From: a virus
Length of the DNA stretch: 64,000 nt
Virus record (IMG/VR): IMGVR_UViG_3300050343_000199
Location: 124,001-188,000 of that record
Direction: 5' to 3' (one strand)
Shown: in pieces, positions 7,299 to 23,157 of the stretch
How positions within the stretch are numbered: the first letter of the stretch is position 1
Layout: the number at the start of each line of letters is the position of its first letter
Translations under genes and position numbers: made by a program
The notes under the pieces: generated by a model
The model's input: only the letters and a program-made list of their open reading frames with translations
Told to the model about the DNA's origin: nothing
Databases searched by the model: none

Positions 7299-7335
7299 GA
7301 ATATTATTGCCTACTAGTTTATACTCATAAAAAAA

Positions 7336-7354
7336 GAGAGGGGTTAACCCTCTC
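7336..7354 (-). terminator. Terminator after the DUF4278-like gene
   Basis: Stem GAGAGGG with CCCTCTC, 5-nt loop, then seven T residues on the minus strand. Confidence 0.85.
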
Positions 7355-7369
7355 CCTAAAGTAAGTTGT

Positions 7370-7537
7370 TCACTTGGTGTAAAGTTTACCACGATAACAG
7401 AATGTACCATGGGTCTCTTTGGATTCTACACAACGTGTATTATACTCAACACCACGATATGAGGTGTGAGTAATTTGTGCGTCGTGAAGTGCAGATGCTT
7501 TGTTGATCTGCTTACGAATCAGATTAAGTGTGTTCAT
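7370..7537 (-). CDS. DUF4278-like microprotein
   Basis: 55 residues with two YRG motifs (SYRGVEYN and CYRGKLY) separated by about 20 residues, the pattern of the small DUF4278 family common in cyanobacteria. An AGGAGT site lies 7 nt before the ATG. It shares the transcript with the upstream 54-residue peptide gene, so it is probably under the same glutamine-type riboswitch, and ends just before a terminator. Function of the family is unknown. Confidence 0.75.
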   Translation of the reverse strand: MNTLNLIRKQINKASALHDAQITHTSYRGVEYNTRCVESKETHGTFCYRGKLYTK

Positions 7538-7577
7538 TGTAGTTACTCCTAAAGTAGTTGGAATTTAATCCGTTCCT

Positions 7578-7742
7578 TTAGTCGTTTGCGTCCCATGGAT
7601 AGCAATCGGGGGTTGATTCCTTCATAACTTCAATCAATTCCACCTTCATTTCAGGAGGAATATTCTCATTTGTTTTCATCCGAAACATAATTGAATCGGC
7701 TTGAGCACATGAGAGTGTTGTATAGAATAATAATTCTAGCAT
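7578..7742 (-). CDS. Riboswitch-controlled 54-residue peptide
   Basis: The ATG follows the last base of a 60-nt structured leader with no spacer. The peptide has a hydrophobic N-terminus (LELLFYTTLSC) and an acidic C-terminal half ending in PWDAND. It is not basic like the glutamine-synthetase inactivating factors IF7/IF17, so the same mode of action should not be assumed. The published downstream-peptide RNA class is defined by short genes in just this position. The gene has no ordinary Shine-Dalgarno sequence; the leader ends in CATCCC. Confidence 0.8.
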   Translation of the reverse strand: MLELLFYTTLSCAQADSIMFRMKTNENIPPEMKVELIEVMKESTPDCYPWDAND

Positions 7743-7802
7743 GGGATGAACGGCTCCGTTCCGCGACTTACTTGCGTCCCACCCAAGAGTGGGATGAACG
7801 AT
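7743..7802 (-). ncRNA. Downstream-peptide / glutamine riboswitch
   Basis: On the minus strand the leader begins CGTTCATCCC, forms a hairpin (TCCCAC with GTGGGA), continues GACGCAAGTAAG, then GGAACGG, and ends with a second exact copy of CGTTCATCCC touching the start codon. These blocks match the downstream-peptide RNA, a relative of the glnA RNA; both bind L-glutamine and are known from marine Synechococcus, Prochlorococcus and phage. Pairing of the 5' CGTTC with GAACG closes the aptamer; the 3' copy can compete for the same GAACGG. Family identity comes from remembered consensus, not a covariance-model search. Confidence 0.82.
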
Positions 7803-7808
7803 GGTATT

Positions 7809-7837
7809 AGTATACCATACTATGTATATGATGTCAA
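7809..7837 (-). promoter_or_regulatory. Near-consensus promoter of the riboswitch unit
   Basis: Minus strand TTGACA (7837-7832), 17 nt, TATACT (7814-7809). The predicted first base (about 7802) coincides with the 5' end of the riboswitch. Confidence 0.9.
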
Positions 7838-12097: not shown

Positions 12098-12190
12098 GAA
12101 AGACGTGTTTATACACCCTATAGGTCTTGGTTTGAGGAGTGTTACGAACCGTTAAGAAATATGTTGATTCCTTAACTAACCGATGTATTT

Positions 12191-22955: not shown

Positions 22956-23157
22956 ACTAGACTCATGCACGCCACTTGTTTTATTATTTCAGATGCTAAA
23001 CAAGAAAACAACCACACGGAAGGGGATTTACCACCAATATATTTTTACTGGAACATATAAACCAGGCGGCAAAATCTTCACCCGCACCAGGGCAAGTTTA
23101 GAGTCCATCCGAGACTGGACCAGAAGACGAATCTACCCAGCTCCACCAGGGCGAGTT

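Follow-up and report, generated by a model that had tools for sequence, protein, structure and literature searches.

Results

Genes and features of the locus

The window, which is the whole stretch of DNA analysed here (64 kb), comes from the 192,818-base record of a marine cyanobacterial virus. On its minus strand, a promoter at 7837–7809 and a terminator at 7357–7333 bound a transcript of approximately 470 nt, for which the following features were found or predicted.

7809–7837, minus strand: sigma-70 promoter, TTGACA-17-TATACT, 11/12 consensus bases, predicted start approximately 2 nt before aptamer 1
7757–7800, minus strand: predicted aptamer 1, compact; matches to RF01739 and RF01704 below threshold, core near-invariant in 228 loci
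7800–7796 with 7761–7757, minus strand: P1 of aptamer 1, CGUUC/GAACG
7794–7789 with 7782–7777, minus strand: P2 of aptamer 1, UCCCAC/GUGGGA
7776–7762, minus strand: joining segment of aptamer 1
7754–7757, minus strand: GGAG, likely ribosome site of ORF2, 11 nt upstream
7740–7752, minus strand: putative 5′ half of aptamer 2, P1 CGUUC (7752–7748) and P2 UCCCAUG (7746–7740, including the start codon), indicated by covariation
7578–7742, minus strand: ORF2, 54 aa, phrog_504, apparently located within the aptamer-2 P2 loop
7571–7597, minus strand: putative 3′ half of aptamer 2, P2 CAUGGGA (7597–7591) and P1 GAACG (7575–7571)
7590–7576, minus strand: joining segment of aptamer 2, encoding DAND and the stop
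7549–7581, minus strand: helix 3, CUAAAG (7581–7576, ORF2 stop region) with CUUUAG (7554–7549), abutting the Shine-Dalgarno sequence of ORF3
7546–7550, minus strand: AGGAG, Shine-Dalgarno sequence of ORF3, detected together with an ATG by script in approximately 200 relatives
7370–7537, minus strand: ORF3, 55 aa, phrog_545, DUF4278-like, the output common to all architectures
7333–7357, minus strand: intrinsic terminator, transcript end

As an earlier note on this DNA had described, ORF2 is an ATG-initiated frame of 54 codons (7742–7578, minus strand) that directly adjoins a structured leader. It was assigned to phrog_504 with an E value of 6e-29, and its homologues were found in 311 phage records, all of them from cyanophages, each with at least 80% query coverage; the carriers are T4-like cyanophages. 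The median dN/dS of ORF2 in relatives was 0.33, indicating purifying selection and supporting coding, and the corresponding values were 0.22 for ORF3 and 0.15 for ORF1, an ORF2-related gene of relatives. A promoter similar to that of the window precedes the RNA in 136 of 226 loci and a T4-like late TATAAATA in 33 of 226; the near-consensus promoter of the window is compatible with the early expression that had been suggested for the peptide.

ORF3 matched DUF4278 (PF14105) with 21.1 bits (E 4e-4), under the gathering score of 25.3, and its counterparts at the same position in two relatives scored 26.0 and 28.8 bits, above the cut-off. The description of the next gene as DUF4278-like thus stands, and the gene context is that of the DUF4278 genes behind cyanobacterial glutamine riboswitches.

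Aptamer 1 is probably related to glutamine riboswitches

Against RF01739, the window leader scored 29.1 bits, below the cut-off of 35 (E 2.5e-5 within its own 192,818-base record), and against RF01704 it scored 25.0 bits, below the cut-off of 33, to which the best relative came closest with 32.1 bits for its unit 2. The core features of RF01739, namely P1 CGUUC/GAACG, P2 and the conserved GACG.AA, were present in aptamer 1 of 228 loci and also in aptamer 2 (79 distinct spliced units), and CGUUCA/P2/GACGCAA-9 nt-GGAACG is common to both units. The predicted folding energy of aptamer 1 alone was −16.8 kcal/mol. Together, these features strongly suggest that both units are related to the glutamine riboswitches RF01739 and RF01704. 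When loci were retrieved through the peptide only, 78/78 parsable ones carried aptamer 1 together with the leader and the half of aptamer 2, a count that leaves out 11 loci unparsed by the script and three that were too short; the loci are related, so that such counts are not independent events and pair counts are inflated. A conserved peptide does therefore stand behind the same RNA in relatives.

ORF2 lies within a probable second aptamer

As judged from sequence comparison, the locus comprises two tandem aptamers, with ORF2 inside the P2 loop of the second. CGTTCATCCC, immediately before the ORF2 ATG, would be the 5′ half of aptamer 2, and GGGACGCAAACGACTRAAGGAACGG, which consists of the codons for the invariant tail WDAND, the stop and 8 bases beyond, its 3′ half; the gene end plus the bases after it, GGGACGCAAACGACTRA-AGGAACGG, match CGTTCATCCC in this way. 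In the window, UCCCAUG pairs with CAUGGGA across the gene to give P2, and the CGUUC of the 5′ half can pair with the GAACG of the 3′ half to give P1. The distance from GAC to GGAACG was 16 nt in 208 of 210 loci, the same as in aptamer 1. The earlier note had recognized a riboswitch-like leader correctly and had missed that this leader appears to end in one half (5′) of another aptamer, the other half of which is the end of the ORF.

Across the gene, P2 was 97.5% paired in 79 distinct spliced units, with both-side changes at four of five pairs, and the covariation of aptamer 2 was 0.151 vs 0.107 ± 0.004 after shuffling (0/500), with slid controls reaching at most 0.048. Where the leader has C in place of U, the coding half has G in place of A, which turns WDAND into WGAND. 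Folding predicted P2 across the ORF in 66 of 70 units, with a mean probability of 0.915 (control, 0.014). Covariation is no test of P1 of aptamer 2 because this helix is invariant, and nearest-neighbour folding favours pairing of CGUUC of unit 2 with GAACG of unit 1 over it. A DNA-level site was considered and dropped, as the covariation spans the start and stop codons.

The D-A-N-D codons were GAC, GCA, NAC and GAC in 195/195, 195/195, 195/195 and 191/195 distinct peptides, respectively, the first figure including eight compensated GGC codons. Codon use in the window is GAT 73%, AAT 61% and GCA 46%; the DAND codons thus appear frozen at synonymous sites, against the genome codon bias for Asp and Asn. 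Furthermore, in four loci (L125, L127, L203 and L218), the ORF stops just before the 3′ half, and the half is still kept. Among the nested versions scanned, no unit scored in Rfam.

Helix 3 was paired in 99.6% of cells, with G-C/G-U/A-U variation. With CURAAG/CUUYAG strands and GGAACG in its loop, it corresponds to the second stem of RF01704, which forms a pseudoknot with CGUUC, in unit 2 only; a second stem of the Glutamine-II type was looked for in unit 1 and none was found. A role of helix 3 as an anti-aptamer only was dropped, its topology fitting the Glutamine-II second stem.

Position and ribosome site of the nested gene

The nested start codon is fixed at 10 nt from P1, usually inside or beside P2. 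Among 279 distinct nested units, the nested stop lay exactly at the aptamer in 76 and 15 nt into the aptamer in 178. ORF2 had been thought to lack a Shine-Dalgarno sequence, which is doubtful: GGAG was present in 94 of 96 peptide-selected loci with a nested gene vs five of 54 with a compact, gene-free aptamer 2. GGAG tracks the presence of the gene, therefore, as expected for a working, if distant, ribosome site.

Filled and empty loops in relatives

In S-TIM5, S-CAM1, Syn19 and S-IOM18, the 5′ half of aptamer 1 precedes the ATG of ORF1, approximately 200 nt further upstream; ORF1 is a small gene (gp196 in Syn9) whose stop codon ends at the 3′ half GACGCAAGTAAGTCGCGGAACGG or only a few bases away. 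Among 228 distinct viral loci, the P2 loop of aptamer 1 was short in 119, 21–60 nt in seven and longer than 60 nt in 98, and nearly all of the last hold ORF1. Nested loops of 100–130 nt were not found. The stop of ORF1 varies with the bases before its start (UCUUAUG-TAA, UCUCAUG-TGA and UCCUAUG-TAG), and variants ending in GRK-stop use a different frame across the aptamer-1 core. In 35 distinct spliced units, covariation of the gene-bearing unit 1 was 0.115 vs 0.054 ± 0.009 after shuffling (0/500), with no excess over shuffles in pairs changed on both sides; in approximately half of the distinct gene-bearing unit 1 variants, P2 is limited to three contiguous pairs.

Four loop combinations occur, with both loops filled (Syn9-like), the second only (the window), the first only (AG-345-E15) or neither (ACG-2014f); the virus record of the window itself holds no ORF1 homologue. 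Compact, gene-free second aptamers were found in 91 distinct viral loci, including ACG-2014f, and in 89 of the 91 the ORF that follows has the YRG motif of DUF4278. Six compact tandem stretches scored 35.6–45.9 bits against RF01739, above the threshold of 35, and compact unit 2 alone scored up to 34.5 bits. Some phages thus keep the RNA without ORF2. The peptides in the unit 2 loop vary widely (phrog_504, phrog_13397 or no assigned family).

Further variants were seen in unit 1. Six loci (L214, L416, L417, L418, L432 and L436) carry in place of gp196 a 75-aa two-cysteine protein (MPLLMLLMAFS...), the stop of which is exactly at the aptamer half. Another six (L414, L415, L427, L428, L438 and L440) have unit 1 loops of approximately 215 nt in which the ATG frame stops at 30–38 codons and the core GACGCAAGTAAATC is kept, representing decayed or different nested genes. 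In Prochlorococcus phage P-HM1 (L449, 1480–1960), the joining segments GACGCAAGTAAGCCGACTCGGAACGG and GACGCAAAAGCCGACTGAAGGAACGG are each 3 nt longer than usual.

The ORF2 protein

The hydrophobic N-terminus and the acidic C-terminus reported for ORF2 were both seen. Cys12 is invariant and Cys47 nearly invariant in the family, and AlphaFold2 predicted a helical hairpin (residues 12–24 and 30–43; pLDDT 80.7). Neither a Pfam search nor a PDB sequence and fold search with ORF2 gave anything significant, the latter being unsurprising for a helical hairpin of 54 aa. Divergent relatives encoded in the same loop have N-termini resembling signal peptides, such as MKFLLPLLLLTSPTYAGEYF. ORF1 (gp196) aligned with ORF2 cysteine to cysteine (hhalign probability 78%, E 1.8e-5) and has the same cysteine spacing, which is suggestive of homology, and the two-cysteine theme is common to the nested proteins.

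The two cysteines, the helical hairpin and the signal-like N-termini of some members point to an exported disulphide protein and not to a cytosolic regulator of glutamine synthetase; ORF2 is thus probably a small, exported, two-cysteine helical disulphide protein. The glutamine-synthetase inactivators IF7 and IF17 (gifA/gifB families) are basic, and ORF2, acidic and with no significant Pfam match, is unlike them, as had been remarked; the similarity of ORF3 is confined to DUF4278, which is the N-terminal domain of IF17. The comparison of codons and pairing suggests that the acidic WDAND tail is largely dictated by the RNA sequence, and inferring function from the acidic C-terminus is therefore unsafe.

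Discussion

A proposed tandem riboswitch with a gene in its sensor

A tandem glutamine-type riboswitch probably controls this two-gene transcript, the first gene of which would lie inside the apical loop of the second aptamer, and we hold this view with some confidence. We propose the following scenario to explain its action. When aptamer 2 is folded, the start codon of ORF2 would be locked in P2, and ribosomes translating ORF2 would unfold both P2 and the joining segment. P2 contains the start codon, and the final codons supply P2 and joining-segment sequence, so that folding of aptamer 2 and translation of ORF2 should be mutually exclusive. For GAACG of aptamer 1, both CGUUC stretches are possible partners. 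Without ligand it may pair with the one in unit 2, masking the ORF2 start, and ligand binding to aptamer 1 may free this start. Synthesis of ORF2 would fall early, while ligand occupies aptamer 1 and aptamer 2 either has still to be transcribed or is kept open by ribosomes; access to the Shine-Dalgarno sequence of the DUF4278 gene would subsequently be governed by aptamer 2. Host glutamine riboswitches precede nitrogen-linked genes, in cyanobacteria mainly those of DUF4278 proteins, and both types activate expression with glutamine (PMC6316151). Since the published host switches activate, the downstream gene is expected by default to be turned ON, and glutamine should, by homology, increase its expression. 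Helix 3 could either hide or free the ribosome site of ORF3, and either sign of control is possible. In a broader form of the model, one metabolite might decide by mutual exclusion which of two to three small proteins is made, the P2 loops acting as gene containers, an extension on which we lean slightly to the side of doubt. That the start region and the last codons or stop of a complete gene form each aptamer helix, as this gene-container reading has it, is put forward equally tentatively.

Other explanations of the locus were weighed against the model of two tandem aptamers. If only aptamer 1 were an aptamer, the second CGTTCATCCC would be an expression platform masking the ORF2 start, and WDAND would be a protein motif. 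The fold predicted with the platform indeed shifts GAACG of unit 1 to CGUUC of unit 2 and UCCC of unit 2 to GGGA of unit 1, and the unbound RNA probably also adopts this pairing. However, the frozen synonymous sites, the GGAACGG after the stop, the compensation between leader and coding end, and the ORFs that end before the element are all left unexplained, and the compact gene-free second aptamers also disfavour this proposal, which we consider highly improbable. The genes might alternatively be passengers in a tolerated P2-loop site, comparable to homing genes in the loops of introns, the aptamers controlling the DUF4278 gene only and nested translation not being regulated by the fold, as the four combinations of empty and filled loops and the wide differences among unit 2 peptides would allow. 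The fixed position of the nested start, the placing of the stops exactly at the aptamer or 15 nt into it, the two-cysteine theme kept in the nested proteins and the near confinement of GGAG to loci with a gene make such passengers unlikely.

It is likewise rather unlikely that this relative of the glutamine aptamers senses another ligand or none. The window and nested forms do fall below the Rfam thresholds, and their joining segments are shorter than those of RF01739, but six compact tandem stretches exceed the RF01739 threshold, and the DUF4278 gene context is as in host switches. The full model of the earlier note, in which one riboswitch has as its sole output an acidic cytosolic protein that regulates nitrogen or photosynthesis in the host, agrees with the co-occurrence of RNA and peptide in all parsable relatives. 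We nevertheless judge it quite improbable, given two aptamers, an acidic tail apparently dictated by RNA, two conserved cysteines with signal-like N-termini in relatives, and phages that have dropped the peptide and kept the RNA. Glutamine-type RNA does precede the peptide, but ORF2 itself appears to be part of the second aptamer, and every architecture shares the DUF4278 gene, and not the peptide, as its output.

Comparison with known systems

The tandem riboswitch proposed here shares with RF01739 the CGUUCA...GACG.AA...GGAACG core, a P1 around P2, tandem copies and a downstream DUF4278 gene, and differs from it in the score of the window form, in its short joining segment and in the whole gene that the P2 loop may hold. 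With RF01704 it shares the CGCA core variant, a second stem in unit 2 with GGAACG in the loop, and short ORFs downstream, whereas the short ORF here is inside the aptamer. Homing-endonuclease ORFs sit in group I intron loops; these too are genes carried by a structured RNA in one of its peripheral loops, although the RNA here is a riboswitch aptamer, with no splicing and no endonuclease.

One close precedent for a translated ORF inside an aptamer is the metE B12 riboswitch of M. tuberculosis, in which a translated short uORF alters control of the next gene (PMC11260477). That uORF is short and its proposed role is regulatory, whereas here conserved genes of approximately 50–75 codons fill the apical loops, one or both of the tandem aptamers are filled, and gene-free versions exist. 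The glutamine-riboswitch RNA family has already been annotated in cyanophages (PMC9964418, PMC9602691), and tandem glnA RNAs are known (PMC2864571). In cyanophage S-CREM1, a glnA RNA was annotated with 44.0 bits over 99 nt (PMC9964418). Compared by annotation only, this RNA of a T4-like cyanophage belongs to the same family, and its 99 nt fit a tandem element; the main text of that paper gives generic nitrogen genes only, with no tandem, nested gene or DUF4278 output. A search of the open-access literature, subscription journals being outside its scope, found no description of a gene nested in a glutamine aptamer. Whole conserved genes in tandem glutamine-type aptamers are thus without precedent in the literature searched, while the RNA family, its tandems and an in-aptamer uORF were already known.

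If the model is right, this is a riboswitch class whose sensor contains a gene under its control, and a protein C-terminus is written by RNA structure. Conserved protein tails such as WDAND can then be RNA fossils, and riboswitch searches would miss nested versions, as Rfam did with all of those scanned here. Abundant marine phages probably read host glutamine via the hosts' own DUF4278 module. The natural gene-free, one-gene and two-gene versions offer ready-made test constructs.

Other RNA elements

Additional elements were noticed near these RNAs. In five loci (L042, L006, L103, L125 and L277), a conserved extra hairpin, ACGGATCC[hairpin]GAGAAGGTTAATTT, lies between aptamer 2 and the Shine-Dalgarno sequence of the DUF4278 gene, and in three (L170, L098 and L463) a second type of extra element, ACTCGGATCACCC..GGGTTAAAGGAG, was seen. 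These hairpin elements before ORF3, which had no Rfam match in the loci scanned, are possibly another regulatory RNA. In one viral contig (L469, 1351–1540), a manA RNA of 173 bits lies shortly upstream of the tandem glutamine-type element. The window itself also contains a PhotoRC-II RNA at 12154–12061 on the minus strand, with 71 bits, well above threshold, and a wcaG RNA at 23118–23023 on the minus strand, with 44.7 bits, just above the threshold of 42.
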